DNA of 64,000 nucleotides, taken from NCBI RefSeq assembly GCF_032362555.1, contig NC_083531.1:2728001-2792000 (forward strand), read 5' to 3'. The notes under the pieces were generated by a model that saw only the letters and a program-made list of their open reading frames with translations, had not been told where the DNA came from and did not search any database. This stretch comes from Amyelois transitella (lineage: Eukaryota > Arthropoda > Insecta > Lepidoptera > Pyralidae). Shown here one piece after another: positions 3,601 to 62,100 of the stretch (position 1 is the first letter of the stretch; every line of letters begins with the position of its first letter). Made by a program: the position numbers and the translations under genes.

Positions 3601-4226
3601 TCCACTTGCCACGATCTCTGCATATTTCCTTTGCTTCATCCACATTCATAACTCTCTTCATGCAATGTTATACTATCATTAAGTGCCGTGTGGTTCCCGG
3701 CACCGATACAAAAAAGAATAGGAACACTCGCATCTCTTTCTAATGGATGTCGTAAAAGGCGTTTGAGGGATAGGCTTACAAACTTAGGATTCTTTTTTAG
3801 GCGATGGGCTAGCAACCTGTGTCTAGTTGAATCTCAATTCTATCGTTAAGCCAAATAGCTGAACGTGGCCATTCGGTCTTTTCAAGACTGTTGGCTCTGT
3901 CTACCCCGCAAGGGATATAGACGTGACCATATGTATGTATGTATCATTAAGCCAAATAGCTGAGCGTGGCCATTCAGCCTCTGTTGCCTCTGTCTACCCC
4001 GCAAGGGATGTGGACGTGACCATGTGTGTGTGTGTGTGTTTAAAATAGTATAAAATAATTAAAAACATTGTTTCAGAACAAAAGCAAGCTGCGCTGTCAT
4101 ATCACAGCTCTTCACAGCGGCACTTCGCCTTACCACTGTAGCATATGTCCAGCTCGGTTCAGCTGGCACTCCTGCCTCTCCAGACATGTGAGAAGAGCTC
4201 ATCCCAAGAGGAAGAAGGAGGAGTGA
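607..4226 (+). CDS. C2H2 zinc-finger protein, gene A (3' six exons, 5' end outside window)
   Basis: Coding exons read 607-816, 1206-1361, 1867-1977, 2840-2951, 3411-3509 and 4077-4226 (TGA). Each has AG/GT borders. The first three introns are phase 2 and the last two are phase 0. The joined frame gives eight C2H2 fingers: CELC..HLETH, CEPC..HVKTSSTH, CPHC..HINSH, CEPC..HMAISKKH, CSDC, CKDC, CDHC and CSIC. Fingers 2 and 4 have HX6H spacing. Fingers 5-7 are each cut by a phase-0 intron just after, or a few residues past, the CXXC. The protein ends in a basic tail (RRAHPKRKKEE). Exons 1-3 look like a repeated two-finger module. The product is probably a nuclear DNA-binding protein, by family knowledge. 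The exon layout matches genes B, E and F, so an N-terminal ZAD upstream of the window is inferred, not seen. Confidence 0.85.
927..1193 (+). mobile_element. SINE-A, full length, TSD on a splice acceptor
   Basis: A complete 267-bp copy runs from GCCGTGTGGTTCC to (TATG)n. It is flanked by a perfect 12-bp direct repeat, TTTATCAAACAG, at 915-926 and 1194-1205. The right copy ends in the AG acceptor of the exon starting at 1206. Confidence 0.92.
1391..1836. mobile_element. Non-autonomous DNA transposon (MITE), copy 1
   Basis: It has terminal inverted repeats beginning CAGGGTGAC, about 23 bp with a few mismatches. The body is closely shared with 6621-7097 and has no coding capacity. It sits in an intron of gene A. 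Confidence 0.75.
2277..2395 (-). mobile_element. SINE-A 3' fragment
   Basis: The minus strand carries the SINE-A 3' part (TACCCCGCAAAGGATATAG and ATGTATGAATG-like tail), diverged. It lies in an intron of gene A. Confidence 0.65.
2564..2752 (+). mobile_element. LINE 3'-UTR fragment (GAATTT-tailed family)
   Basis: It contains the blocks GAAAATGCTGCAGTGCAG, GACGTCAACCAATGTTGTG-like and ATAATGAATAAA, followed by a TTTGAATTTGAATT tail. The same sequence ends the coding LINE fragment at 47098-47990, so this is a 5'-truncated copy. Confidence 0.7.
2979..3247 (+). mobile_element. Helitron-like non-autonomous element (H1)
   Basis: It starts TCTATACTAATATTATAAA and ends GCGGGCACAGCTAG, followed by T. 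This fits Helitron ends (5' TC, 3' CTRR, insertion between A and T). It belongs to a short lepidopteran family with related copies at 15137, 20312, 22188 and 50298. It lies in the intron after the 2840-2951 exon. Confidence 0.75.
3536..3665 (-). mobile_element. LINE (RT family) 3' tail fragment
   Basis: It begins with (TACA)n, then AAAATCACGCCTCTTTCCCGG and the antisense of the last codons of the LINE at 36174-37733. It is a 5'-truncated insertion. Confidence 0.75.
3682..4040 (+). mobile_element. SINE-A with a duplicated 3' segment
   Basis: A near full-length SINE-A runs to about 3945. A second copy of its last ~75 bp follows directly (ATCATTAAGCC..GACGTGACCATGTGTGTG) and has decayed to (TG)n. 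It lies just before the last exon of gene A. Confidence 0.8.
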
Positions 4227-5010
4227 TGTGTGTGAGAGATTTTGTAAATTTTTAATAACACTTAGAAGACTCTAGATGGCAAAATGGTACGTCTAACTTC
4301 TGATATATGTTGTGTACGGGGCAGTACAGTTGGCACTCCTGCCTCTCCAGACATGTGAGAAGAGCTCATCCCAAGAGGAAGAAGGAGGAGTGATGTGTGT
4401 GAGAGATTTTGTAAATTTTTAATAACACTTAGAAGACTCTAGATGGCAAAATGGTACGTCTAACTTCTGATATATGTTGTGTACGGGGCAGTACAGTTGG
4501 CACTCCTGTCTCTCCAGACATGTAAGAAGAGCTCATCCCAAGAGGAAGAAGGAGGAGTGATTTGTGTGAGAGGTTTTGTAAATTTTTAATAACACTTAGA
4601 AGACTCTAGATGGCAAAATGGTACGTCTTACTTCTGATATATGTTGTGTACGGGGCAGTACAGTTGGCACTCCTGTCTCTCCAGACATGTGAGAAGAGCT
4701 CACCCCAAGAGGAAGAAGGAGGAGTGATTTGTATGAGAGGTTTTGTAAATTTTTATTACTAAAAATAAAAAATAAAATGGAACGTTCCACTTCTGTTGTA
4801 TTTTGTGTTCGGGGCAGTACAGTTGGCACTCTTGCCTCTCTATATGATGATGATGATATATGAGAAGAGCGCATCCCTGGAGGAAAAAGGAAGAGTGATG
4901 AGTGTGAGAGAATTCGTATATTTTAATTATTAAAAATAAAATAGAACGTCACACTTCTGATGTATGTTGTGTTCGGAGCAGTACAGTTGGCACTCCTGCC
5001 TCATTCCCAG
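4165..5010 (+). repeat. 167-bp tandem repeat made from the gene A terminal exon
   Basis: The motif TGGCACTCCTG recurs at about 4164, 4331, 4498, 4665, 4824 and 4988, a period of 167 bp shrinking to 159-164. Unit 1 is the last 62 bases of gene A coding sequence including its TGA. Later units lie downstream of the stop. Units 2-4 are almost identical, so the expansion is recent. Units 5-6 are diverged and partial. Confidence 0.93.
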
Positions 5011-5116
5011 AGGAAAAAATAACGAGTTTGAATGATTCTAATGATGTGGTTTTTCCTAAAATGACGCTAATTTATTGTGTGATCGTCCTAAAATGTGTGT
5101 TGTGTCTTTGTAAGGA

Positions 5117-8747: not shown

Positions 8748-11377
8748 ATGGACAGCGACTACACACAAATAACTACACAGAAAAATGAGCCAAATGAAGG
8801 CAGGCAAAGTTGTAAAACTCCAAGAAAATTCTTCTTTAGACAGGTATAGTACCTACGTATGTAAAAGCTTGATTTCTAGATCAATTTTTTTTAAAGTTCT
8901 TGTTAGACACGGTAAAGCACTCTTTAAAAAGTAAAACCTAGATATGGAAATAAACTGGGGATGCTCTTGGGATGAAGTAAAACTGCACTTTGGTTTAACT
9001 TTAAATATGCACTGTAATAAACCGCTGAACTTATTGATAAAATAATGTTTAAATAAATTGATTCGTACTAGATATTACATTGTAAAAAAGAATTAATAAC
9101 ACACTTAAATTTTCTTTTTCTTTTTTGTAACTGGCCAGTTATGACACATTCTGAATAAAACAGAAAATAGGTTGCACAATACCAATTATATTAAACAGTT
9201 CTAAAACCATTGTCAGGCATATAATGTGCACAACCCATTGCAGTTGTTCGTTACGAGTGGAGCATGGACTATATATTTCTTGGTCGGCTTGTACGTCGGA
9301 GCACCCACTGTGATCATCCCTCAGTTACGACGGGAAGCCAACTCTACTGACGCGGTCAGCTTACAAATGGCTTCGTGGTTATGTGAGTAACTGATTAAAA
9401 CTACATACATACATATACATGTAGTCACGTCTATATCCCTTGCGAGATAGACAGAGCCAACAGTCGTGAAAAGACTGATAGGTCAAGTTCAGCTTTTTGG
9501 CTTGATGACAGAATTGAGATTCAAATAGTGACAGGTTGCTAACCCATCGCCTATAAGGAGAATCCCAAGTTTATAAAACTATCTCTTAGACGCCTTTTAT
9601 GACATCCATAGGAAAGAGAAGGAGTAGTCCTATGCTTTTTTTGAGAAAAGTCACGGCAAAAGAAAAAGAAAACACACAGCAATATTAAAACTATATAAAA
9701 AAAAGAAAAATAGTATAGTACTTAGTAGCCATTGTTTGTTTATTATTCAAAAACTCGCTTAGACTACAATTTCCGACCGAAATTGATATTATTTAAAAAC
9801 TAGCTTAGACTACAATTTCCGACCGAAATTGATAATATTTTTAACACTATAGGTCCTAGATAACTGAACTTTTAGGTAAAATTTTGACGTCATTGTGTTG
9901 AGAAAGACTTACTTACAATATATGTTCTCCTCAAAAAAATTGTGAACCAAATAGTGACCCTTGTGCTACTCCAGTACGAAACTTTTTACAAATGGACGAT
10001 ATGCTAAGTTCCCATGTGATTGAAGACTAGCTGTAATTAGTCATAATTTACATGAATTTTACGCGTACGTACGTTTATTACGCGTCTCAGTTTAAAAGTT
10101 AGTCAAATGCAAGAGAAAGTTCACTAAATTGAAACTTCTTTATTCCAGCTTCCATGTCCAGCTATTCGTCTCTCCTCTGGGAATGCGTTCTGCCATTCAT
10201 TCTGTCTTTTTACGGCAGGAAGATAACATCTATCATCATTCATACATCTACGCTTATGGTCACAATAGCGTTCTACTTCAGCTCGACAACTACTCATTTA
10301 CTCATCTCAGAGTTTTTGCATGGCATCCCGTATGCTGGTATTTTGACAACTTCAGTATTAATCATAGCGGAGTATTCGTCACCATCGAACAGAGGAATTT
10401 TTTTAATAGTAAAATCTGCGTCCGTGTTTTGGGGTATTTGGGTATCTAACGCAGTAGGCACATTTTTTCATTGGAGGAATATAGCCTTAGTAGGTTTTGT
10501 GTGTTCTGCTTATTCATTGACTGTATTCTTCTGGCCTGAGTCACCTTTTTGGTTAGCGACTAAAGGGCGATATGAGGATTGCAAGAAATCACACAGATGG
10601 TTAAAAGGTGTTGGGGAGAAATCCGAGAGAGAACTAAGAAATATGATCATCTCGCAAACTGATGTTAAAAACGTTGATACTGAAAACGTTTTAGCGTATA
10701 CGTTCAAAACTTTACGGTCTAAAGAGTTTTATTTACCGGTCATAGTAGGGTGTTTGCCTATCATCATGTATCAGTTCTCAGGCAAAATTGTATTTAACAT
10801 CTATGCTATAGAGGTCATGAAAAAGATTTCAGATAACGAGTCAGCTGCGTACACTGGTATGTTAATCATGGATGGCGTGACTGTTTTCAGCATGTACGTT
10901 TCTAGTATCATTTCAAAATATACCACTAGAAAGTTTTTACTTATATCTACGTCAATATCATCAATTGTATTCTTGTTAGTATTGTCTTTATATTTGTATT
11001 TAGTTAAATTATGTATATTAACAGAAAATGTGTATGTGTCTATATGTTTGCTGACAGGATTTTCTTTATTTGTTAGTATGGGACCGGCGTCTTTATGTTT
11101 GGCGTTATACGGAGAACTTGTTCCCTTGAGGCATAAAAGTTTAGCCGTTATAGTAACAGCAGCGGTAATGTCTTTCATGCAAGCGACTAATTTAAAAGTG
11201 GCTCCTTATATGTTTAGATCAGTTGGAATTCACGGGGCATGTTTATTTTACGGGTTAACATCATCTGCCTTTATTATACTATTGATTAAATATTTACCAG
11301 AAACTAAAGACAAGACTTTGCAAGAAGTTCAAGAATATTTTAAGAAGGATCGCGATGAAATTAATACTTTAGTCTAA
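8748..11377 (+). CDS. Sugar-transporter-like MFS protein 1 (Tret1/SLC2-like)
   Basis: Three exons, 8748-8843, 9244-9382 and 10149-11377, join in phase 0 then phase 1 into 487 residues, the usual length of SLC2/Tret1-type transporters. The start ATG follows a candidate non-coding acceptor (TTTCAG ending at 8716). Visible family marks are YGRK in the 2-3 loop, EYSSPSNRG, PESPFWLATKGR after TM6, and PETKDKTL after TM12. The usual QQxSG sugar-site motif of TM7 reads YQFSGK, so the substrate may differ from the hexoses or trehalose typical of the family. By homology it is a plasma-membrane facilitator. It is convergent with and paralogous to the gene at 11608-14941. Confidence 0.9.
9405..9655 (-). 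mobile_element. SINE-A, diverged
   Basis: The minus strand carries recognisable SINE-A blocks (GATGTCATAAAAGGCG, GGTTAGCAACCTGTCACTA, TATCTCGCAAGGGATATAG). It lies in intron 2 of transporter gene 1. Confidence 0.75.
9748..9846 (+). repeat. Two-copy ~48-bp direct repeat with inner dyad
   Basis: The unit GCTTAGACTACAATTTCCGA.. is present twice in a row. Each holds the dyad CAATTTC/GAAATTG around CGACC. It is intronic and its function is unknown. Confidence 0.7.
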
Positions 11378-11607: not shown

Positions 11608-14600
11608 TCAACTATCCGTTCTCTTATTCTGTAATTTTTCTTCTCCTTTAAAATACTGATCGATTTCAATCAACGTTTTATCTTTCGTTTCAGGCAAAAA
11701 CCAGAACACTAAAATAGTAAAAATGCTCATGCATATACCATAAAACAAGAAGGTGCCATGCATTCCAAAACTTTTGAATATAAACGGCGCAATATTTAAA
11801 GATGTTGCTAATAGTGACATAAAAATTATTGATACTAAAACAACACTTAAACTCTTATGTCTTAACGGTACTAATTCAGCGTACAATGACGTCGCCATAA
11901 TCGTGGGTCCACAGCCCACAGAGAATGAATAACAACCTAACAAAGCTATAGATAAGAACGCATTTTCAACTAATAAAGACAATTTGACTAAAAACAAATA
12001 CAACGATATAGTAAATAGAAATAAAATAGACACAGTAGCAGAACATAACAATAATGTTCTACGTTTAAGAAATCTACACAATAAGCAGCCCACGTACATG
12101 CTGAAAACTGTTGCACCATCTAAAATTAGCATGCCGGTGTACGCCGCAGAATCATTCTTAGTAATTCGCTTGAATATATCTATTGCATAGATGCTACAAA
12201 CGAGTTTCCCCGAAAATATATACAGACAAACACACAGAGTTATAACGAAGATAGGTTTGTAGAATTCTCTAGAAGATATAGTTCTGAAAAATCTAAAAAT
12301 ATTACCATTTCTGATCGTAAGATTCTCATAATTTTGGTAGTTTAGTAAATTATCAAGTTCCTTTTTAGAGAATTCTCCATTGCCTTTCAACCATCTATGG
12401 GATCGTTTACACTCGTTAAACCTACCCTTGTTGGCTAGCCAAAATGGAGATTCCGGCCAGAAAAATGCTGTTAAAGTGTACAGCGAACACAAGAACCCAA
12501 CCACAGCTATGTATCTCCAAGAGAAAAATGTCCCAATAACATTTGACACCCAAATACCCCAATGTATGGACGCTGATTTGGTCATCAAGAACATGCCACG
12601 ATACTTAGGTGACGTGTATTCGGCTAGTATTATGACGGCAACAGTGACAGTCCCGGAGTGAGGTAATCCAGTGATGATTTCAAAGATGAGGAGTTGGTTA
12701 GGACTGTCGCTAATGTAGAATATAACGCTGGTGATGATCAAGGCGCAGTTTACGAAGAGAAAGGTTCTCCTCCGGCCGAAGGTCGACAGTAAGACGGGCA
12801 AGATGAAGTTCCAAGGAATCGTGCCGTAGCTGCAGCCGGAAGCTGAAATCAATTGTTTGTTGAAATAAATTTGTTTTTAAATGATGCGTATAATACCTAA
12901 CCTAATTATTATATTTTTCGTTTTTCCTTTCGCTTGTTGGGAGTTAACATAAAAAGTAGTAACTAGTAAAGTAATAGCCACGTTTACAGTTTTCTTTACA
13001 AGATTGACTAGAAGCCGCCCGCGACTTCGTACGCGTGGAATCAATCCTGAGGGAACTCCGGGATAAAAAGTTAGCCTATATGTTATTAAGCCAAACAGTT
13101 GAACATGGCATAACATTATTTTCAAGATTGATGGCTCTGTGTACCTCGCAAGGGATATAGACGTGATTATATGTATGTGTGTATCCCTTACATAGGTATA
13201 ATGTGAATGTATAGCAGTATCTATGTATATTTGTGTATAAAATAAGTAACTTACAAATCAAAGAAGCCATAGCATCGCTGACGGCGTCTGAGTCGTTTCT
13301 CCTCAGCGCGGGAATGATGACTGTTGGAGCGCCGAGGTACATGCCCACCGTGAAGAAGAGAGTCCATACCGCGGACGACAGGAATAGCTAATCCAAAACA
13401 GTAATAATAAGCTTAAAACGGCCTCTGTGGCGCAGCGGTAATACGCTTGTCTGTGACACCGGAGGTCTCGGGTTCGAATCCCGGTCAGGGCATGATGAGA
13501 AACGAACTTTCTCCGATTGGTCTGGGTCTTGGATGTTTATCTATCTGAGTATTTATTACAAAATATAGTATCGTTGAGTTAGTATCTCGTGACACAAGTC
13601 TCGAACTTACTTCTAGGCTAACTCAATCTGTGTAATTTGTCCCGTATAAAATAAAATAAAATAAAGCTTAAAATATTCTTTACTGTATATAACATGGCAC
13701 AATAAGGAATCATGAGATTTGGCGTGTAGGAGAGCCGAGTTCACACCGCGGACGACACGAAAAGCTGGAGCAAACGAGGAATACTCATCTTGAAAACATT
13801 GTTCATTTGTGCAAAATATGGGTAGGTCACTTGTAATTCTTCAAAAGCAACCTTTCACTATTTGAATCTCGAATTGAAAACCGTAGAGATGAATAACTGG
13901 ATGAAACGCGGAATAGCGCAGAGGGATTATTAATTACAAGCCCAACCCGAAATCCTAACCCGGTCATAGTAAAGTTAGGAATGAGAAAATAAAATCATTT
14001 TTGTTCCTTAGCTAACCCTATCTTTAAAGCAAAATCAAAGACTATTTTCTAAATTTTCTACAGTAGTTTGAGAGTCGATTTCTTTACGGTGAAACATCGT
14101 GAGGAAACCCGCATATTTGGGCAATGTACACCATACCAACATCTATACAGGCGAGATTCTCCTGCCAAGGTAGCGGTCACACCAGTCTATTCGTGCAAAA
14201 ACCTGAATCGTCCAATACAATCATGGTCAAAAATGCGCCTCAGGCTCTTTTCCAGAGAGTTAAAGACTAAGGCTAAGGCCAGGAGGAAGAAGCCCCTTAG
14301 GTATAGTGGGCTTTATAGGGAGTGCCAGTCTTATACAAACAATATCAAGAAGTACATACTGACTGCCCCTCAAGACATATGGCGACAGTATAGGTTTTTG
14401 AATCTCAATTCTATCATTAAGCCAAACAGCTGAACGTGGCCTATCAGTCTTTTCAACACTGTTGGCTCTGTCTACCCCGTAAGGGATAAAGACGTGATCA
14501 TATGTATGTATTTATAGGTATTGTGATTTTTTAAGTCCCGGCTGCATCATCATCTACGATTAACCAAGAGTGGAGAGCTCGATCTCTATCTGTTTTGTGC

Positions 14601-16188: not shown

Positions 16189-16599
16189 TCTCTCTGTAAT
16201 GTAGAGCATGCACAGGTACTTTTACATTACATAATAATGGACAAAACCTGATTACCCTGGATTGGTAGGTTCCCATTAAAAAGTAAATAATAAAAAATAA
16301 AACTCAATCTTATGGTACCAAGTAGGTATGTATTAAGTTATATTTTTTAAGAAATACGTCGCGTAGGTTTACCGCTCCATACCTACAAATTTACAAATAT
16401 TAACTCTAAACTAAGCAATTTACTTTAACACACATTAATAATAAATTAACTTACACTTTATTACACGTGTATTGCACAAAGATTTTTACTTTTTGAAGAA
16501 AATAAACCATAATGGGAGAGCCCAGACCTATGACTACGATCCAGGATTGATTATGGTCAAGTCTTTAAAAGTTACTACATTTATAACGTCTGACCACTT

Positions 16600-16910
16600 A
16601 AGATTAAAATTATCCGGCGACTCCATGATCCAATCCGTGAAACTTTGCTTGCGCGATTTAGACTTTTAACTGATAGCGTCGCGTGGTTGCTCGTTGTGAC
16701 TTGTGGCGTAGATATGGCGCCACATTTTTCCTTCCAAGCCCGGAGGTCTATCCTATTCTCAAGAACCACACGGCAAAACTGCTTAATATTGTTTACATAC
16801 ATACATACATAAAATCACGCCTCTTTCCCAAAGGGGTAGGTAGAGACTACATCTGTCCACTTGCCACGATCTCTGCATACTTCCTTCGCTTCATCCACAT
16901 AATATTGTTT
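16600..16910 (-). repeat. Repeat family R fragment followed by LINE 3' tail
   Basis: 16600-16735 is family R in antisense. 16795-16910 is the antisense 3' tail of the RT LINE (AAAATCACGCCTCTTTCCC..). No gene is seen between 14942 and the 63-bp array. The rest is unremarkable AT-rich sequence. Confidence 0.6.
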
Positions 16911-16912
16911 AT

Positions 16913-18085
16913 TTGACATCAATTTCTAACAATTCAACATTCTTCTTCCGCGGATATCTGCATAATACTGTTTATATGACATCAATATCTAACAATTCCA
17001 CATTCTTCTTCCGCGGATATCTGCATAATACTGTTTATTTGACATCAATGTCTAACAATTCAACATTCTTCTTCCGCGGATATCTGCATAATATTGTTTA
17101 TTTGACATCAATGTCTAACAATTCAACATTCTTCTTCCGCGGATATCTACATAATATTGTTTATTTGACATCAATATCTAACAATTCAGCATTCTTCTTC
17201 CGCGGATATCTGCATGATATTGTTTATTTGACATCAATATCTAACAATTCCACATTCTTCTTCTGCGGATATCTGCATAATACTGTTTATTTGACATCAA
17301 TGTCTAACAATTCCACATTCTTCTTCCGCGGATATCTGCATAATATCGTTTATTTGAAATCAATATCTAACAATTCCACATTCTTCTTCCGCGGGTATCT
17401 GCATAATATTGTTTATTTGACATCAATATCTAATAATTCAACATTCTTCTTCCGCGGATATCTGCATAATATTGTTTATTTGACATCAATGTCTAACAAT
17501 TCCACATTCTTCTTCCGCGGATATCTGCATAATACTGTTTATTTGACATCAATATCTAACAATTACACATTCTTCTTCTGCGGATATCTGCATAATACTG
17601 TTTATTTGACAACAATATCTAACAATTCAACATTCTTCTTCCGCGGATATCTGCATAATACTGTTTATTTGACATCAATATCTAACAATTCAACATTCTT
17701 CTTCCGCGGATATCTGCATAATACTGTTTATTTGACATCAATATCTAACAATTCAACATTCTTCTTCCGCGGATATCTGCATAATATTGTTTATTTGACA
17801 TCAATATCCAACAATTCCACATTCTTCTTCCGCGGATATCCGCATAATACTGTTTATGTGACATCAATATCTAACAATTCAACATTCTTCTTCCGCGGAT
17901 ATCTGCATAATATTGTTTATTTGACATCAATGTCTAACAATTCAGCATTCTTCTTCCGCGGATATCTGCATAATACTGTTTATATGACATCAATGTCTAA
18001 CAATTCCACATTCTTCCGCGGATATCTGCATAATATTGTTTATTTGACATCAATATCTAACAATTCCACATTCTTCTTCCGCGGA
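16913..18085 (-). repeat. 63-bp minisatellite made from the gene B 3' end
   Basis: About 18-19 head-to-tail copies of a 63-bp unit. On the minus strand each reads CCGCGGAAGAAGAATGT..GATGTCAAATAA plus an ~18-base spacer. The unit nearest gene B is its own last 14 codons with stop, so the array is an expansion of the coding end and 3' flank. One unit has lost three bases (around 18011). Because 63 is 3 x 21, the opposite strand stays open for 401 codons. That frame is judged an artefact. Confidence 0.95.
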
Positions 18086-21000
18086 CAAATCTTATGCACT
18101 CGCTTCCTATGCGTGTAAAGTGACGCGCTCTGCCGGAACGTGCGGCCGCAAATTTCACACGACAGCGGCCGCTCACCGCTGTGTATAAACTGGTGTTCAC
18201 GAAGACCTTTTTTGTCCTGTAAATAACAGGCACGATGACTATTTAATGTTTTCGTGCTTTTATTTACATAGGTACATACAAAAACTATAAAGATAAATTA
18301 AATGTAGTAAACCACTGTTTGTATAGGGTATTATTAAACTTATAAACATAGGTACATACATACATAAAATCACGCCTCTATCCCGGAGGGGTAGGCAGAG
18401 ACTACATCTTTCCACTTGCCACGATCTCTGCACACTTCCTTCGCTTCATCCACATTCATAACTGTCTTCATGCAAGCTCGGCGGTTTCGGGTACTCTTGA
18501 CCTGACTCTTTACCAGGACATCCTTAATTTGATCAAGATACGTTCGTCTAGGTCTATAACAGGTACGATGACTTTGTGTTTTTGTGCTTTAATTTACATA
18601 GGTACATACATATCATCACGTCTATATCCCATGCGGGGTAGACAGCACCAACAGTCTTTAAAAGAGTTATAGGCCGCGTTCAGCTGTTTGGCTTAATGAT
18701 AGAATTGAGATTCAAATAGTGACAGGTTATTTATTTATTTATTATTATTTATTTATTTTAATCATTCAAAATTATTTAAAAATAACTATACCTACCATCA
18801 GTGAATAAAAATACAATTATTGAGTGATAAGAAGTGTAAAATAATAAAGAATAACATTTTTGAAATTGAATATATCTAAAATATTTAATTGTCCCAACTC
18901 ACCCTGAACGCTTTGCCGCAAAGCTGGCATATTTTGTCTCTGGCGTTCTCTTTAACGCCGCGGTGGGCGCGCCGCACGTGACGCGCTATACATCGCCGCG
19001 TTGCGAGTGCCTGAACAAAATATATCCTACTAATATTATAAATGCGATAGTTTGTATGTCAGGATGTCAGTATGGATGTTTGTTACTCGTTCACGCAAAA
19101 ACCACTGAAGCGATTACAATGAAATTTTGTATGTGGGTAGCTGAAGACCCAGAATAACATACATATAGCTATTTAACTCCGGGAACGGGAAATTAAGCTA
19201 ATATAATTACCATTACTACGCTAATATACTACTTACTAAGCTAATATAAAATAAATACTATTATTTTATCCCGGAGTTCCCGCGGGATTGATACGGTTTC
19301 CATGCGGACGAAGTCGCGGGCGGCCTCTAGTGTATATATATATATACAACTAACTTTTAAGAATTTTTCTACACTTATGTGAAAACATGTAATTGGTCAA
19401 AAGTAACTAAATGAGATTTTGTACAAGATAGATGACTACCTATATGTTTTCCAAATAAAAATAAATGAAAATTGTCTGTGGCGCAGTAGGTCCCGGGTAC
19501 TATTAGATAACTATAAAGATAAATTTAGTAAAACAAATCAACAGTCTTAAGGACTATTGTCAAATCACTGATTCTATAGGGTATTATTAAACTTATAAAC
19601 ATACATACATACATAAAATCACGCCTCTTTCCCGGAGAGGTAGGCAGAGACTACATCTTTCAACTAGCCACGACCTCTGCACACTTCCTTCGCTTCATCC
19701 ACATTCATAACTCTCTTCATGCAAGCTCGGCGGTTTCGGGTACTTTTGACCTGACCCTTTACCAGGACGTCTTTAATTTGATCAAGATACAATTATATAT
19801 ATATATATATATTCCGTTACCTACCTTCCCGCACTCGGGACATTTATGCCGAGTCCTGTTCTCGTGCTGATAGCTGACGTGGTCCCGGAGTTCCGCCCGG
19901 GAGCGGTATCCTTTGTCGCATGTCTCGCATTTGTATCTATTGTGAAGAGGATTTAGAATCATTCAATCGTTTGCTTGTAATGGGTCGTGTATTAGATGCT
20001 TTAAGAAACAATAATATAAGTTAAAAACATATATATGTAAATAGGTACTTTTATCATATCTTTATTTCTTACTGTGTAGACAAAACAAACTCTCAAGAAA
20101 TGGAGATTTAGATAGTGACAGGTTGCTGGTTCGACTTCGAAAATAATAATCCAAAATCTTGATAAATAGGTAAAAAATACTACAATAAAAATACTAAATT
20201 AATCACTACATATTAGCAAAGTAACTTCCAGCGTTTGTCCCTAATATGTCTGTATTTATGCTTAGATCTTTAGAACTATTTACCAAACGAATTTTGATGC
20301 ATTATAATTAAAACTACCTTTGCCCGCGATTTCGTCTGCGTGGAATAGTTATTTTGGGCATCATTGAAGCCCTCAAGGATAAATAATTTTCCCCGTTTCT
20401 TTTTCACATTTTCCATTATTTCTCCGCTCCTAATAGTTGCAGCGTGATGTTATATAGCCTAAAACCTTCCTCGATAAATGGTCTATTCAACACAAAAAGA
20501 TTTTTTCAATTCGAACCAGAAGTTCCTGAGATTAACGCGTTCAAACAAACAAACAAACTCTGCAGCTTTATAATATTATTATAGATAGTTCTAGTGATTC
20601 CACATGAAGGTTTATGTATATTGTATAAATGCTACACGTGATAAATATAAATAAATAAATAAGTAAATATATACGGGACAAATTATACAGATTGAGTTAG
20701 CCTCGAAGTAAGTTCGAAACTTGTGTTACGAGATACTAACTCAACGATACTATATTTTTTATAATAAATACTTATATAGATAAACATCCAAGACACAGGC
20801 CAATCAGAGAAAGTTCATTTCTCATCATGCCCTGGCCGGGATTCGAACCCGGGACCTCCGGTGACACAGACAAGCGCACTACCGCTGCGCCACAGAGGCC
20901 GTCATATAAGTATAGCCGCAAAACAAATAAATAAAACTCACTTTAAGAACATCAAAATGCGCGTGCGCGACAAGACTATTTAGATAATAAGGTTTATTAC

Positions 21001-31117: not shown

Positions 31118-31887
31118 TTAATCTATAACATGTTTTTTTAAGTGTCGTTTCAATTTAGTCTTCAACGTAAACCGACTCAAACAAACATTACATTCGTAGG
31201 GTTTCTCGCCTGTGTGAGTTCTTGAATGCCTCATCAACGTACTTTTCTCAGTAAATTTTATCTTACAAACATTACATTCAAACGGTTTCTCGCCCGTATG
31301 CCGTCTCATATGCGTCTGCATGTTACCTTTGCGAGAAAACAGTTTCCGACAAACATTACATTTGAAAGGTTTCTTACCTGTATGCGTTGTCAAGTGTGCA
31401 TGTAAACTGGTCCTCTCAGAAAATCGTACATTACATACGGTACATTCAAAAGGTTTCTCACCCGTGTGAGTTCTCAAATGTCTTTTCAAAGTACATTTAT
31501 CAGCGAATCTGCTTCTACATAGATCGCATTCATAAGGTTTCTCACCCGTATGTCTTTTCATGTGTAAATCTAATTTACTCTTGGAAGTAAACCTACTTTG
31601 GCACACTGTACATACATATAAATTTTCACCTGTATGCAAGCGTAAGTGCGTTTTTAAATTGCTCCTTCTAGTAAATTGCCTTTGACAAATATTACATATG
31701 ATAAGTTTCTCACTAGTATGTGTGGTATAATGTGCTAATAATTTACTCAATTCGCTAAAATGTTTCTGGCAGACGCTACACTCGTGGGGTTTCTCGCCAT
31801 TTTGTGAAACGCGTTGAGTCTCGGGCTTCTTGTTTCTCGGGTTTCTTTCGACGCGTTTCCGTTCTTGTTGCGAATTTTGAACGCCAC
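31118..31887 (-). CDS. Gene C distal terminal exon (8 fingers)
   Basis: After a basic spacer (ERKRVERNPRNKK) come eight fingers: CSVC, CNIC, CTVC, CDLC, CTVC, CNVC, CNVC and CNVC, each CX2CX12HX3H. Almost all are joined by TGE(K)P-type linkers, and the exon ends HLKKHVID. The ATG at 31906 lies upstream of the acceptor and is probably intronic. Confidence 0.85.
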
Positions 31888-34800
31888 CTGCACCATTATT
31901 TTGCATTTAACTTCCACTAAATTATAAATAGTAAACTTCCATTAAATTAGGGCTAATAAACTTAGGATCCTTTTTTTAGGCGATGGGTTAGTCTGTCACT
32001 ATTTGAACCTTAATTCCATCATTAAGCTATACAGTTGAACGTGCCCTTCATCTTTTTGATATTGTCTGTCTGTTTGCTTTTTTCTAACGGTTGAATGACA
32101 GAGAATTCTATTAGCATTAAGTCTACCTATTGTACTATTGAGGCTCAATAAAGTTTTTAATAAATTAAAAAATAGAGACATGACGGAAAATGCAATTTCC
32201 TAAGCTGAAAGCCTTGTTATTATTGGAAATTTGAGTGACTTTCACCTCAATCTGTTTATAAGCAAGATGAAATTGTAAGGTGACGCAAGTAAGATGAAAA
32301 GTAAAAACAATTCGAATTAGTTTTACAAACAATTTATTTACAATAAAACCGGTTGTCATTCGTAATATAAAAATAGGTTTATTTGATAAATTCTAACTAA
32401 CATCATTCAACATAAAACATGTATAATTTTAAACATTAATTAATCATTTTTTACATGGATAGTAACAAATTACTTATATTATTAAGTATATTATAATTTA
32501 TAAATGTATTTTTCAATTAAAGACCTACTTAGATTTTTACTTCAGTGCCTCAAGAGATGGTCTATAAAAAATCTTACTGGGAAAGAGTAGTGATTATAAT
32601 ATGTATAGTATCCCACCCCAAGGAATACTCCATGAACAGATAATTTTTTTTACTGTTTTATTATATTTAATGATATTGTTTGATATATTCTATCTATAAT
32701 GTACCACTTTGACGTGTCTATTCAACGAACTTTTCTCTCTAAATCGACTGTGACATACAAAACATTCGTGCGGCTTCTCACCGGAATGCGATCTCATATG
32801 TTGCTGCAAATGATCTTTCCTTGAAAACATACTTTTGCAAACTTCACAATGAAAAGGTCTCTCGCCCGTATGTCGCCTCGCGTGTGTTCTCAAATTCCTC
32901 CTATCACTAAACCTTTTCTTACAAAAACTACATTCGTAAGGTTTTTCGCCGGTATGAGTCCTTAAATGTGCCTTTAAATTGGGAAGTCTGCCGAATGTTT
33001 TGTCGCAATATTCACATTTGAGGCTTTCCTTTCTTTCTGTTTCTCGTCGTTTCTCGCTGCTTTTACAGCGATTTTCTCGTTTTGATTTCCCGTTAGTAAC
33101 GCCACCTGCACGTCAATCAGTGTATGAATAATGGATAATAAACAATCGTTATTTCAATGGAAAACTTCAAAAAAAATTTGCTAGAACAAGAATCAAAGAT
33201 CTGGAGTAACCGGTGACCCTCATTAGAGAACACAAGAGTCCAACCAAACTATTAGAGATACCGATATACCGCTTTTACAAAAAATATTGAACTTGGTGGG
33301 CCGCTTCAATTGATATCAAAAATCGACGGCCTAAGGTATCTGATAAAGAACCCTCAGCTGTTCTCAGGTATATTAGGAATGTGGTAATACCCCCTTCTAT
33401 TGGCGTATGTATGGCGGTGTCAAATAAGAATATCTAATAAAATAAATCAATAAGCCCACGTTTCTACGAAAAGAATTGAACTCCTACCAAAAACATTCTG
33501 CAAAAAAAAACTGGCCAAGTCTCGACGGAACTGCTTGTTTATCTCTGAAAACTGATAAAATCCAGACAAAGTCGTGACAAGTCTAAGTTATTCCTTACTG
33601 CAATTTCATTATTACTTTAGTTAATCTTGTGTAACTTTGCTGACTAACGTATAAAGAATGTTCAATGCTTACATATTTCATTTATTGACTTACCGCTTCA
33701 GAAAAAGATAAGTTATCACTTTCACATAGAGAAATTATCACTTTTATGAACCACAAGTTTTACAATTTTCTTTATCGACAATTTTATTTGTATTTTAATT
33801 TATAATGAATTAATAATTGTAAATATTTGTTAAAAAACTAAACAAAAACAACAATCGACTTAACGTCAACGTCGTGTCCCATCAAAATCTATTGCTAAAC
33901 TGACATTTCGGCTAACAAGCTATCTTGACATAAACTGTATTTAAATGGCTTCTTCAATATTTTTTTAACCATTGACTTTTTAATTAAACCGGTCCGATAT
34001 CTTTTAAATAAAATTATGAAAAAATATGAAATTAAAATACCTATAGATTGTTATTTACTCGTTACACATTTAAAATATAATAAAGAACTGTCTTACCGCT
34101 TGAATTTTTTGGAGGCGGTATATTCATATTGTTGGCTTCTTTCAGTTTCGACGTATCCGGTTTCTGAACAGCACCATCTATCGACAAAAATGTTAAATTA
34201 CTAATATAAAGTAAGTTTATTTGTTTGTAACCTCTTTACGCGTTATCTACTTCTTGAAATTTCGCGTATAAATAATTAAAAGTCCTAAGAGACGGACATA
34301 GGTAAAAACATAGTTCTTATGGGATTTATAATAACCTAGTATATCTTTAGTAGGTAGGCTTACAAATTCGTACAGGCGAAGCTGCGGGTAAAATATAGTA
34401 ATATTATAAATGCGAAAGTAACTCAGTCTCTCTGTTTATCTGTTACGTTTTGCGCCTTAACAACTGAACCAATATTGATCACTGGTTTAGGAGTAAAATC
34501 CCAACGCGATATGGTAGCAACCTGTCACTATTAGATCTTAATTCCATCATTTGACGGCCTCTGTGGCGCAGCGGCAGTGCGCTTGTCTGTGACGTGATAC
34601 CGGTTTCCAATCCCGGCCAAGACATTATGAGAAATGAACTATTTCTGATTAGCCTCGGTCTTAGATGTTTATCTATATAAGTATTTATTATAATACAGTA
34701 GTATCTTTGAGTTAGTATCGCGCAACACGAACTCTCGAACTTACTTCGACGCTAACTCAATCTGTGTAATTTGTCCCGTATTTATTTATTTATTTATAAA

Positions 34801-39770: not shown

Positions 39771-42700
39771 ATGGAATCCAAACAAAATATTTTGTTGAAA
39801 AGTGAGCGGCAATTTTATGAAGGTATTTTGATTACAATTCTTTTAGATTTTGTCTTATTATCCCAACTAATATAAATGCGAATGTGAGTTTATTTGTTTG
39901 TTTGTTAAATACAAACTAATGTAATTAATGCCCATAATAAATTACTCTGCCCACATTCCACAGTTTGACTGACAACAAAAAAAAACTGTATAATATTCAG
40001 TTGTGCATATAAATTTGCAGGTACCATAGAAGTAGAGAAATTTACATACATACCTCCATACAATGTGAAATGCGAGATGAATGCAGATATATCAAATGTA
40101 TCTACCAAGACCGAACAAGGAGACCAGGCAGGTATTGATAGTAGTTCTTACTTTTGTGAATATAATATATACATTGCAGGGTAGACAGAAGATAAGACAT
40201 AGCCAACAGTCTTGAAAAGGCTGATAGGCCACATTCAGTTGATTGATTTTTCCCGGCACCAATAATAAAAATAAAATCATCGTAAAAGGCGACTGAGGGA
40301 TAGGCTTATTAACTTGGATTTTTCTTTATAGGTGATGGGCTAGCAACCTGTCACTATTTGAATCTCAATTCTATCATAAGGCCTAACAGCTGAACATTAC
40401 CTATCAGGATGTGGACGTGATTATGTATGTATGTATATTTATTGTATTGTTGATGAAATTGGAATGAAATGTAGTTTAAAATTATTTTTACAGGTTGCCA
40501 ACAGTGGCAGTGTGGGGTGGTCAAAGCAGAGTTTGAACCTAAGTCTGTGGATGTGAAAATAGAGCCGTTGGTGGAAAATTTCCAAGACGGTAAGAACAGC
40601 AACATTACAATCTTTTGTCACAGGATATTCTTACTACAGTTTTAGAGTCTTTGGGTTAAGAAAAAGCTATGCCCTGATTATTTTTCTTTTCAAAGACTAG
40701 CCAAATTTTTAAGAATAATTTAAAAGTATATGTGACAAATAAAATCCTTTGACAAAAAATAGTCATGTATAAACGAATGAATGAAATTAACCCTGCGAGA
40801 TCTAATCCAACGTTGAATTATTAGTTACATAATATCCAATTGTAGGAATGTGCAGATTTCCTCACGATACTTCACCATCAGAGCATTAGTTTACTATCAA
40901 CTAATTTGTGATACTCAACATAGTCAATGTTAATATAAGGGATTCAAATAGCCTTGTTGGGATTCGAATCTTGGTACCTTGTAACAGATAAGCTTTATGA
41001 GACAATTATACCTCAACCACTCTCTAATATAATTATATATACAAGACAAATTACGCAGATTGAGTTTGCCTCGAAGTAAGATGAGAACTTGTGTAACGAG
41101 ATACTAACTCAATGATACTATATGTTATATTTTATAACCACGAAGCGCCTCTCGCCTGACCTCCACAAAAATTCCATATTCTTCTTGAATTTCAGATTCT
41201 CAACCAGCATCGTCTCGGGCGCAGAACGATACAGAACCATATCAGGAGACTAGTGATCCGTTGACCAGCTTTTTGTTGGAACGGCAGAGTAAACTGCTCG
41301 AGCCGACGCAAACGGCAGATGTAGAAGGTATTGTACAGTTAACAGCATATCAACTTATCCTTCAGTAACGAAAACACAACCGTGTTTTGGCATTGAGATT
41401 CGCCAGTATCGGGTTACTAGCCCATCGGCAAAAACAAGGATCTCAAGTTTGCCTTTTCCTTGATTGACTGACTGAGTTGGTTCTGTAGCTTTCTAATCCT
41501 TATCAATTCGATCATCGACACTCTGATAACTTACTACTTCAGTCTACTTAGTCTTCTTCAAGATTTGTGACTGAAAATTATAATATTTTTTTTGCAGGTA
41601 CTCGACATGCACGGCAGTCTTCAAATATGAGTTTGGATGTTAACATGTTGAATACTGATTTGAACACAGCAGAGGATGTCTACAAAGTGACAGAGGTGGA
41701 AAAGGAATGGACAGACGGGGAGGGTAAGGTCTATTTAACTTTAATATCTATGATATACAACATTTTTATATTTAATGATTATACTGATGCAATTCTTCTG
41801 ATCTTAAAAAATTAAACTCTTTATCACCATCCAAACAAAACTTCCAAAAACGACACGGAACATTTCGAGAAATGGTAGGTTAGGTTAGGTTGTTACTAAA
41901 TGAAAGATTGAAATGATAAAATAAACCCAAGAAACAATAGTACATCAGTTCTGCTTGTTTCTAAAGAAATTTCTTTCAGCAGACCCGAGCCAGGAGACAT
42001 GTTAGAAGTCTTAAAAGTAATCAAAACAAATTTTCTTCCATATAACAAATTTTCACACAGATGCCGCCTCACAAGATTGGGAAGCCGAGAAACGAGAACC
42101 AGATGAAGGGAACCAAAATACCAAGAAACAAGACTCCAATTACAACCCAAAATCAAAAGACCAGGGCATCGTGTGTTGTGTTTGCAAAAAATACATCACC
42201 CGCTCCAAAAACCTGAAACTACATATGCGCGTACACACTGGAGAAAGACCTTATGAATGCAAAATGTGCGGAAGCCGCTTCAGCAACTCTAGTATGTTAC
42301 AAATTCACAAACGAACTCATACAGGTGAGAAACCTTACGAATGCGACGTGTGTCATAACAGGTTCGCAGTGAAATCTCATTTACAGAGACATTCAAAAAC
42401 TCATACCGGGGAAAAGCCTTACGAATGTAATGTATGTCGAAGCAGGTTCACTAGCAACAGTAACCTACAGGGGCATTTGAAAACGCACACAGGCGAGAAA
42501 CCGTTTCAATGCGACGTGTGTCAAAAAAGTTTCGCGAGAAACTCCGTGTTACAAAGGCATATAAGGACTCACACGGGTGAGAAACCGCACGAATGCAATC
42601 TGTGTGAGAAATCTTTCGCCGATAGAAATAAATTGCTTGTACATTTACGCACTCATACTGGTGAGAGACCTTATGAGTGTAGTATATGTCCGGCTAGGTT

Positions 42701-42869
42701 TAGCGATAATGGTAGGTTGAAAATACATATAAGAACTCATACAGGTGAGAAACCGTATGAGTGTACGTTTTGTCAACGCCCCTTCGCAGATAAGTCCAAT
42801 TTGAGAAGTCATATGTTGAAACATAATGAGGGACATAGTTTTTTACGAGCTACTATGAGAAATTCTTGA
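39771..42869 (+). CDS. C2H2 zinc-finger protein, gene D (complete)
   Basis: Exons 39771-39801, 40021-40131, 40494-40589, 41196-41327, 41598-41723 and 42061-42869 all join in phase 1 to give 434 residues. The short first exon (MESKQNILLK) is the least certain, chosen for its ATG, GTGAGC donor and matching phase. The middle exons are acidic and low in cysteine (VKIEPLVENFQD, TSFLLERQSKLLEP). The last exon carries eight fingers (CCVC, CKMC, CDVC, CNVC, CDVC, CNLC, CSIC, CTFC) with TGEKP/TGERP linkers. It is likely a nuclear transcriptional regulator and the divergent partner of gene C. Confidence 0.87.
41035..41130 (-). mobile_element. SINE-B 3' fragment
   Basis: ACAAGACAAATTACGCAGAT and GAGATACTAACTCAATGATA. 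It lies in an intron of gene D. Confidence 0.6.
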
Positions 42870-57210: not shown

Positions 57211-59116
57211 ATTGATTAATAGAAATGCTAGTATTTTATCAGGAAATATTGTTGTTGTAACTATACATTACTGTATGAAACATGTTATTGGCATGAGCCC
57301 AGACATTTTATATGAATTTTATTATATAATGTATTCATAAGAGATAATGCAGCCATAATTTTTCACTCGAATCAAGGTTTTTTAAGAATAAAGTTAACAG
57401 TCAATTTTTAAAAATTATTCAACTTTGTATTATTAATACCAAGTTGAATAATTTAAAAACAAATAGCTTTAAATTTTATCACTGAAACATAAAATACAAT
57501 TTTGTATGGTAATACCAACTCTTGCATTGAATTGTTTTATTATTATATTTAAAAGCCTGCTGTAGGCATAGCCATTTCCCTTTTATTAACTGTCAAATCC
57601 AAATTTTGATATCAACTCAAAAACTTCAATTCCAAAGACGTGATTATATGTATTGGTACTCAAAAAGCTATTCATATTGGCCTGCTATAAAAAAATACAT
57701 CATAAAAAATTTCTCTTTCCCGGAGGAGAAGGCACGGACAAAAAATAGTTACTAGTTGCAACATAGTCAGTTTCAGGTACTCTTGAACTGATATTCTGCC
57801 AAAATGTCTATGTTCAAGGCTTTCCCACTCCACCAATCTGATTCACACTCCCATTGTATATTTGCTTAGATTTACCAATAGTTCGACTAAATAAGTCATC
57901 ACATCCAGTTGGAACTATATTTCATACCATCTTATATACCCACTTCGAAAGTTTGATAATTTTCGTACATTAATAAAAGATAATGTTCTGGCATGAATAT
58001 GATCCACAGTATATATTTTTGTTCATTATATTAATGATAAATAAGACGTAAGGCTGAACATAATTATGTATTATACTAATTTTTAAATGAAATAAAAGAT
58101 AATTTAAGTTGTAAACAGTTTATTATTTACACACCTTGTGGATGGTTTTTATGCAAGTTATGTGCATACAAATTAATTGCAAATTTTGTGATTTACTTAA
58201 TAATATTTACATATGAACCTATACCTCCCCTTCAAAAATAAAAAAAAAAATTGCTTTAATAAATAATAAAAATTTCATTTGTATAATAAAAAATAAATGG
58301 TATAATATTGTTCACATATTAACTTCTGATTAAAAATCCGGATTTTTAGTTTACGGACGAGAGTCAAAAAACATATTTATGGCTTTTGCACAATTGTAAA
58401 TTACACTCTTAGTCGTTTCACGTCTTCAACTTTACAAACTTTAGTCTGTCAAGTCTTACATACATATGTAATGTATATCATCTGCAATATTTACATACCT
58501 TTGTAAAAGTAACTTGTGGAAGTTACACGTTCTTATTTAACTGTACACACCTACAATAGGTTATAAATACAACCTATCTTCACTTTTACTCACTTGTAAC
58601 TTGTAATTTTTACACAACTATAAAAAATTTACACGTACGCTCTACATTCGCGTCGGGACAGTGTTGCAACTTTTATATATCTTATGACACTAACCCATCT
58701 TCATTTACACGCCTGTCACTTATTTCAAAACAAAAACACGGCAAGAGATTAGATTATGACAGATTCCACCTTATTGTCTTAACATATTTACGACTTAAAT
58801 ATGACTTGTGACATTAACAAATTTGCAAGATTTACAAACTTGTCACATTTACACGTCTGCAACTTTTACACATCTGTGTTTTACACTTTACATTCCAGTC
58901 GGGACTAACATACATACATACATAAAATCACGCCTCTTTCCCGGAGGGGCAGGCAGAGACTACCGGACTAGTCGGGACTTTTATATCCATATTAAGGTTT
59001 TGGCGTGAGTTTAATCGCGATTCTCTGCGCTAAGGTGGCTCGACAGTCGATATATCAAATTTAAAATCTTGTGACATTTACACGCCTGCAACATTTACAC
59101 ATACGTGTTTTACACA
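57211..59116. other. AT-rich interval downstream of the HTH gene
   Basis: AT-rich, with many imperfect TTTACACATCTG / CTTGTAACTTTTACAC words from 58430 to 59115 forming a loosely repetitive block. A LINE 3' tail fragment (-) lies at 58915-58965. No gene is seen. Confidence 0.45.
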
Positions 59117-62100
59117 TTACATTCCCGTCGGGTCTTTAAGATCCCCGATGTCCATACTAAGGTTTTTGTGTTGTGTTTTGGCGTGTGTTTTCATCGCGAT
59201 CCTCTGAGCGAAGGTGGCTGGACAATGCGGACATTGGTACGGCCGCTCGCCGGTGTGAGTCCGTCTATGGTTCGTTAGGATGCGGTTCGTCTGAAAGTAC
59301 AAAGAGTTTTTTATTTTATTTTATTTAATTTATTATATACATAACAGAATACAACTAAGTACATAATAATAAGATAAAAAAGAAATAGTAGAAACAGATC
59401 TGTTACAAGTTATACACTAGATTTTGCTGTTAAATATGGCTGAATATCAATGAAACTATATAAACATACATACGTACATATAATCACGTCTTTATGCCTT
59501 GCGGGGTAGACAGAGCCGACAGTCTTGCAAAACACTGATAGGCCACGTTCAGCTGTTTGGCTTAATGGTAGAATTGAGATTCAAATAAATGGCAGATTGC
59601 TAGCCCATCGCCTTAAAGAAGAATCCAAAATTAAAAAGCCTATCCCTTAGTCGCCTTTTACGACATCCATTGGAAAGAAATGGAGTAGTCCAATTCTTCT
59701 TTTCTATTCGTGCCGGGAACCACACGGCAAACAACTCGATAGATCTTCGGTGAAAACCTAGAGTAATTAACCTCTTCCACTACCATTAGGACTCGTACCA
59801 GCCATTTTCTCGCGCGAAAATTCGCCGTTTCGCTTTTTATTACAACGTGAAACGGAACGGCGATAGTTTTAGCGCATTAAAAAATGGCGTCGCGCGCGCA
59901 GCAAATATACTCACACTGAATCCTCTCCCGCATATATCACAGTACTTGTTCTTCGGCAGCGGTATTTTTTCGTGAACGCATTGTCTATGCGTACGCGCCG
60001 AATACGCCGAGCAGAATGTCTGAATATACCAACATACACAAAAAAAAAAACAAATTATCAATCTGTAAAAATATTTTGAAGGTTAATGATATCGAACATT
60101 ACCTAAACTGGGTTATTTTACACATGTAGACTAGTTAGACATCTGATAATAATGAACGGTAAGTAAATGTTTTATTGTTCACTAAAGGAGTACATTACAA
60201 ATATTTATTTATGCAAATAATGCAACGTTTGTAGTACAAAGTTCTTCTTCGCCAACTGCTATATCCCTTGCGGGGTAGACAGTGTCAGCAGTCTTGAAAG
60301 ACTAACAGACCACGTTCAGCTGTTAGGTTTATTGATAGAATTGAGATTCAAATAGTGACAGGTTGCTAGCCCATCGCCTAAAAGAAGAATCGCAAGTTTA
60401 TAAGCCTACCTCTTAGTCGCCTTTTACGACATCCATAGGAAAGAGATGGAGTGTTCCTATTTCTCATTACACTGATGCCGGGAACCACACGGCACTTACC
60501 TTATTACAAATATCGCATCTATGTTTCGTATTCTTCTTATGCACGGACATCACGTGGTTAGTCATTCGGATTTTCCTTGAAAACACCTTTCCACACTCTG
60601 GGCACGGCACGCTGGAATTAAAATTATATATATATAAAATATATAAATAAAAGACACTAAGCGGTATGATACATTAATGATAGAATTTGATCTAGCATGA
60701 TTGGATTTGATCGATAGCGGTGTCAAAGATGAAATACTATATAGAATAGAATAGATTTATTTTCAAAATTGGATACAAGGTATCAGTTATTGACGTAACA
60801 TCACTTAAATCTAATTATAACTACTGCCGCTTCCAAAGCGCATGTGTAGAAGAAACGGTGGAACAAAATACACTGCAGCATTTTCCCCGAACGTCAATTT
60901 ACAAATTAATATAGATCTCTTATATTTGTAGATTGACGTCTATACGTTACTATATACCTTTTAATTGTTGTACTGCCATCTAGCGAGAGAAAAAACGAAA
61001 CTGAGAACACTAGCGCCATCTGCAGACATTACCTCTCGATTTTGGGCGGCGTGTGCACCGCGGCGCTAGGCAAATGCCTCTTATACTTGCATATACACAC
61101 TTATTCATGTCTTACGGGGTAGACAGAGCTTTAAATCAGACAATCAAACGCATGGATTAATGATGTTATTTGACCTAACTAGATTGAATTGAAGTACAGA
61201 TCCAATTTAATCACGTCAACGTTAAAAGTGTATTTATTTTGTACGTTTTACATACCTTTCCATTTTCTGTGCTGCCATCTAGCGAGAGAAAAGAGAAACT
61301 GAGAACACTAGCGCCATCTGCAGACATTACATACCTACATACATATGGTCACGTCTATATCCCCTGCGGGGTAGACAGAGCCAACAGTCTTGAAAAGACC
61401 GAATGGCCACGTTCAGCTATTTGGCTTAACGACAGAATTGAGATTCAACTAGTGACAGGTTGCTAGCCCGTCGCCTAAAAAAGAATCCCAACTTTGTAAG
61501 CCTATCCCTTAGTCGCCTTTTACCATATCCATGGTAAAGCGACGGAGTGGTCCTATTCTTTTTTGTATTGGTGCCGGGAACCACACGGGAACCACGCATT
61601 ACCTCTTGATTTTGGGCGGCGTGTGGACCGCGGCGCTCGCCAAATGCCTCTTGTACTTGCATATACACACACTTATTCATCTCTTACGGGGTAGACAGAG
61701 CTTTTAGTCAGACAATCAAACACATGGATTAATGATGTTATTTGACCAAGCTTTATTGAATAGAACTTAAGATGTAATTTAATCACTTCTATCGGTGTCA
61801 CGGATTAAAAGTGTACTTAATTTCGTACGTTTTTACATACATACCTTTCCATTTTCTGTGCTGCCATCTAGCGAGCGAAAAACGAAACTGAGAACACTAG
61901 CGCCATCTGCAGACATTACCTCTCGATTTTCGGCGGCGTGTGGACCGCTGCGCTCGCCAAATGCCTCTTGTACTTGTATACGCTGGGGAACTGCTTGTTG
62001 CATTCCACGCAGTACGCCAACTCCTTGTTCTCCAGCTTGAGCAACTCCGGGTGGTTGAGCCGGTAGTGGTTGTCCAGATTGTGGTACTGCGAGTATGTCT

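Follow-up and report, generated by a model that had tools for sequence, protein, structure and literature searches.

Minisatellites (VNTRs) are found in 3' untranslated regions (UTRs), that of human SLC6A3 being one example. The array described here lies at the end of a zinc-finger gene that we call gene B, and it resembles the SLC6A3 VNTR in consisting of tandem units of tens of bases placed just behind a coding end. It differs from that VNTR in the content of its unit, which holds the coding end itself, the stop codon, and a poly(A) signal overlapping the stop, and in that the first unit is still translated. A second parallel is offered by the coding minisatellite of Prdm9, where, according to an excerpt of the report, a zinc-finger gene's own sequence likewise evolves as a minisatellite; in that excerpt, however, the Prdm9 repeats are fingers inside the protein, whereas the copies at gene B stand behind the stop (PMC3890296). 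The D4Z4/DUX4 macrosatellite also has units that carry gene sequence, and in the excerpted account a poly(A) signal decides which unit yields stable RNA. There the signal is described as lying immediately distal to the array, whereas at gene B it is present in 16 of the 19 units, each of which carries 14 codons (PMC3018141). Finally, duplications covering part of a gene are treated, in the excerpted text of PMC3449122, as possible new genes or dead ends. The copies at gene B are partial duplicates in the same sense, but they are only a few dozen bases long and are arrayed behind the stop codon of their parent.

Among the listed matches from the open-licence literature, which comprise titles and the beginnings of abstracts, none appeared to describe a minisatellite unit with a coding end, a stop, and a poly(A) signal. 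Taken alone, the array seems to us ordinary in kind but unusual in its unit; what deserves following up is that duplicated ends recur in three of the four genes lying close together here. The account that we favour, and consider likely, is that a neutral minisatellite was born by tandem duplication of the end of gene B, with transcripts probably ending in the first units. The structure of the array, the source of its unit, the lack of coding constraint in the copies, and the mosaic of variants are shown by the sequence; from these we infer the mutational mechanism, the transcript ends, and the neutrality.

Anatomy of the gene B array

The window, by which we mean the whole stretch of 64,000 nucleotides analysed and to which all positions refer, contains four C2H2 zinc-finger genes that look split into exons: gene A on the plus strand and genes B, C, and D on the minus strand. 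Their last exons start in phase 0, and their upstream exons are unassembled. Three single open frames lie among them (31121-31906, 32693-33112, and 42021-42866), with 8, 4, and 8 C2H2 patterns, respectively. The ZAD zinc-finger genes are an insect family characterized by an N-terminal ZAD domain. A loose pattern of two C..C pairs, applied as a test for this domain, matched five frames in the window, all of them finger-bearing, and an upstream frame from gene B and another from gene C gave no Pfam match.

The last exon of gene B (18040-18216, minus strand) is an open frame behind a TTTACAG acceptor, as an earlier sequence-only reading of this DNA had placed it. It contains a C2H2 finger (Pfam zf-C2H2, 26.6 bits against a cut-off of 25.2) and closes with a TAA stop. 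In the intron before it (18223-18610), a stretch of about 55 bp just ahead of the exon is found again, at 86%, some 333 bp further along, and these duplicates flank an interspersed repeat.

When cut at a CCGCGG anchor, the array at 16898-18084 on the minus strand resolves into 19 units; Tandem Repeats Finder delimits it as 16898-18085, with a period of 63, 18.9 copies, 93% matches, and a score of 2061. Seventeen of the 18 spacings are 63 bp and one is 60 bp; accordingly, 17 units are 63 bp long, one is 60 bp, and the most distal ends after 56. Each full unit comprises 14 codons (42 bases), TAA (3 bases), and 18 further bases, which is the composition that the sequence-only reading had assigned to it. 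Unit 0 (18084-18022) is gene B's own coding end. Behind its stop follow 18 extra units (16898-18021): sixteen have the full 63 bp, one has 60 bp, and the most distal agrees with the unit for 56 of 63 bases. This count accords with the roughly 18 to 19 repeats that the sequence-only reading had put past the real stop. The in-frame stop attributed to every unit is also there, with TAA intact at the stop position in 19 of 19 units. With 19 head-to-tail units of 63 bp, the array falls within the range of about 10 to 100 bp per unit used for minisatellites (as given in an excerpt of PMC3152781). The unit has no second locus within the 64-kb window, and a search against viral_contigs returned 0 matches. 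These results confirm the original observation of a gene-end minisatellite and, as far as one window can show, support its interpretation as the end of gene B turned minisatellite.

The start first proposed for the array needs correction, as the array begins at 16898. The position given, 16913, is the start of a 401-codon open frame on the plus strand (16913-18118; 401 amino acids from TTG, 380 from the first ATG), which had been ascribed to the 21-codon period. That explanation holds. The 42 substitutions separating the units from their consensus would be expected to produce 0.76 nonsense changes in this frame, and none was seen (probability of none, 0.44); because so few are expected, the frame needs no selection to stay open. 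At least one of the six frames is open in 73% of 5000 shuffled units, and Pfam gave two matches, both under the cut-off (24.4 against 27 and 21.2 against 29.5). The plus-strand frame simply follows from a period that is a multiple of three.

At its far end, the most distal unit breaks off at ATTATG and gives way to a truncated interspersed repeat (16796-16899, minus strand), some 104 bases long and bearing an ATGT tail, whose borders share a few bases with the unit and the tail. Six other near-full-length matches at 91 to 94%, plus partial or weaker ones, occur in the window. The sequence TAAACAATATTA appears first at 16900-16911 as part of the distal unit and again at 16784-16795 (both minus strand), where AGCAG and the presumed old 3' flank come after it; the stretch behind the ATGT tail reads TAAACAATATTAAGCAGTTTTGCC. 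The two borders share 12 bases, whereas at least 11 shared bases were found in 0.25% of 4000 random pairs, and we read this 12-bp repeat as a probable target-site duplication. Together, the shared border, the ATGT tail, and a length shorter than that of several copies in the window match what is looked for in a non-LTR retroelement; as a test of clade, a 60-residue tail, used as a self-composed query, found no relative in viral_contigs. Past the insertion, the presumed old flank agrees with the unit as far as GCAG, apart from one difference, and diverges thereafter; the sequence beyond GCAG is probably the old 3' flank of gene B. As we read the anatomy, the first duplication predates the insertion and would have taken place on an element-free copy, because whole units contain the GCAG that lies behind the insertion point. 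Elsewhere, a stretch at 13420-13500 with GGTTCGAATCCC resembles, by eye, a tRNA-derived short interspersed element.

Duplicated ends at neighbouring genes

The coding end of gene A, its TGA stop, and its 3' flank are repeated in tandem at 4157-5019 (plus strand), mostly at 167 bp. Five copies begin at 4157, 4324, 4491, 4658, and 4817, with a stub at 4981, and the unit starts within the last finger and takes in TGA and some 100 bases of flank. Compared with the gene's own copy, the other full copies are identical at 0.988, 0.958, 0.862, and 0.842 going outwards, and the 39-base stub at 0.949; the fifth copy has a short ATG run. The full copies decay outwards, but a steady decay with distance fails at the stub, which is again closely similar to the gene's own copy. 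At gene D, the coding end and 3' flank occur twice, about 178 bp apart (58830-59229, minus strand, the outer borders being approximate), with 86% identity over 50 bp and 87% over 77 bp, and have no copies elsewhere in the window. The second copy is split between 58907 and 58969 by the same repeat family that is found at the far end of the gene B array; AGTCCCGACT flanks this insertion at 58897-58906 and 58970-58979, and at least 10 shared bases occur in 0.35% of random pairs. Near 58836-58784 and 58659-58523 there are two more matches, both weak (identities of 73% over 53 bp and of 61% over 144 bp, the latter with E 0.007), which were left uncounted as copies. Gene C and the three single-frame zinc-finger genes were also searched for duplicated ends and showed none, the matches seen there being finger-to-finger repeats, interspersed repeats, and short weak ones. 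Coding ends are therefore duplicated through the stop in three of the four split zinc-finger genes (A, B, and D). We count three separate events because the units differ in length, borders, and sequence.

To ask how far this recurrence departs from chance, we used a diagonal scan for local duplications at offsets of 20 to 400, since BLAST scans missed arrays that Tandem Repeats Finder reported at 9741 and 21242. The diagonal scan returned 18 loci, the gene B array scoring best among them (926.8), and none in one shuffled window. After removal of nine loci with copies elsewhere in the window and two finger-to-finger repeats inside genes, seven remained, three of which cross the stop of a zinc-finger gene. 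The probability that at least 3 of 7 random units fall on a stop is 0.0002 for the seven zinc-finger stops and 0.00004 for the four split genes. These values are post hoc, as gene D came from a search aimed at gene ends and the gene B array prompted the choice of the window; with that array set aside, two of six duplications cross stops, and the probabilities become 0.006 and 0.002. The test covered zinc-finger genes, the other genes being unannotated. In an excerpt of PMC3152781, tandem repeats with units of 1 to 50 bp, shorter than those considered here, are reported to be least dense in the coding sequence of Daphnia, Drosophila, and honeybee; on that basis, coding ends are not expected sites for repeats. 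One window cannot settle whether the recurrence goes beyond chance, but the duplications at two other genes suggest that an account confined to gene B may miss a cause. Tentatively, the gene ends of this zinc-finger cluster might be hot spots for tandem duplication through the stop, for instance, by termination-linked breakage combined with relaxed constraint. Such duplications would protect themselves, because the first copy always closes the protein, and gene ends could in this manner serve as a general nursery of minisatellites; we see this as possible rather than probable.

Unit variation, end signals, and rival explanations

Relative to the consensus, the gene B units carry 42 substitutions, corresponding to 18 distinct ones. 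The distinct changes within the 14 codons comprise 4 silent (2.9 expected under the same spectrum), 7 missense (8.3 expected), and 1 nonsense (0.8 expected), and variable sites make up 10 of 42 coding and 6 of 21 other positions. Because these counts are near expectation and variable sites are evenly spread, the copies show no sign of being kept as protein; no sense-strand coding constraint was found in them, and 9 of the 19 units still encode the exact 14 residues and stop. Similarity between units bears no relation to their distance within the array (r = -0.03, p = 0.59). Two of the 15 site pairs tested (5/49 and 18/49) show all four combinations of variants. The units are thus mosaics, a pattern that points to an exchange of variants among them, though repeated mutation could also produce it. 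Unit 0 differs from the consensus by one change and hence belongs, while still translated, to the same variant pool as the array copies.

The end of gene B reads GTC AAA TAA ACA, such that an AATAAA hexamer starting at 18044 (18039-18044, minus strand) overlaps the stop codon at 18042-18040. Canonical AATAAA is present in 16 of 19 units, with TATAAA in two and CATAAA in one, and the next AATAAA past the array on the minus strand is at 16462 (scanned to 15501). Gene C, which ends GTTAAATAAAC, closes in a context like that of gene B, with VHKI...VK and AAA TAA AC, and is likely a paralog without an array. Its end reads GTT AAA TAA ACG, placing an AATAAA at 44302-44297 across the stop just as in gene B. 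Because gene C has this overlap and no array, the overlap of stop and AATAAA is likely, though unproven, to be the ancestral end signal of both genes. With a stop in every unit and the canonical signal in 16 of the 19, gene B transcripts most likely end within the first one or few units, and the mRNA would have a very short 3' UTR, perhaps accompanied by a 63-nt ladder of longer forms.

This abundance of signals, with AATAAA in most units and TAA in all, raises the question of whether gene B relies on the array, as a functional block of tandem poly(A) signals, to secure or tune the ending of its transcripts, a reading to which the duplicated ends of two other cluster genes might lend weight. 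We consider it unlikely. Variation falls evenly on coding and other sites of the unit, and the hexamer has been lost in three units. Moreover, AATAAA is absent from four of the six gene A units (the first three and the stub) and from the surroundings of the gene D stop, so the signal is not common to the three cases, and we rejected a shared poly(A) role for them.

Somewhat less probable still is that the array came first and that gene B, once its own stop was lost, ran into it and owes its closing 14 codons to the first unit. In favour of this, unit 0 sits inside the cloud of array variants, one change from the consensus, and so has shared in homogenisation. Against it, gene C has a similar tail, with VK and AAATAAAC, in the absence of an array, and the presumed old flank past the inserted element retains gene B's post-stop bases. 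Within the 64-kb window, we found neither a copy of the unit elsewhere nor an array predating gene B. An assembly artefact is very improbable: assemblies can miscount the copies in a 1.2-kb array, but the 19 units comprise 18 distinct sequences over 56 columns, and the flanks on the two sides are unlike each other. We rejected as scarcely credible a plus-strand protein built from 21-residue repeats. In its favour are the 401 open codons and a sole indel that is in frame (3 bp); against it stand the few nonsense changes expected, the frequent openness of shuffled units, the lack of a Pfam match above cut-off, and the reading of the unit on the opposite strand in gene B.

Proposed birth of the array and its significance

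We return to tandem duplication of the gene B end. That gene B existed before the array is supported by the end of gene C, the apparent old flank, and the lack of coding constraint in the copies. Originally, gene B would have ended in ...DVK TAA ACAATATTA(A/T)GCAG, with AATAAA overlapping the stop. A tandem duplication would then have linked the end of this stretch to the beginning of the 14-codon tail. As the duplicated segment spans the stop, the first copy would still have closed the protein, leaving it unharmed. Unequal exchange, slippage, or conversion may subsequently have brought the number of units to 19 and redistributed variants between them. A truncated retroelement would later have inserted, duplicating its target site, and capped the far end. 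The array today is a non-coding minisatellite. Its birth junction is untidy: AAGATTTGTCCGCGG in the gene stands against GCAGATATCCGCGG in the unit, and CCGCGG is preceded by AAGATTTGT in gene B and by GCAGATAT in the units. Two histories would fit, one in which the join was at AG, 2 bp being lost later and one base substituted, and another in which filler bases were added at the join.

The array shows how a gene end can give rise to a minisatellite without harm to the protein, and much of the sequence of steps can still be read from it. For annotators, the 401-codon frame is a warning, being merely a by-product of the 21-codon period, and for studies of transcript ending the array provides a natural series of tandem poly(A) signals. 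The three duplicated gene ends in 64 kb lead to a hypothesis that can be put to any annotated insect genome, namely, that tandem duplications are enriched across stop codons.
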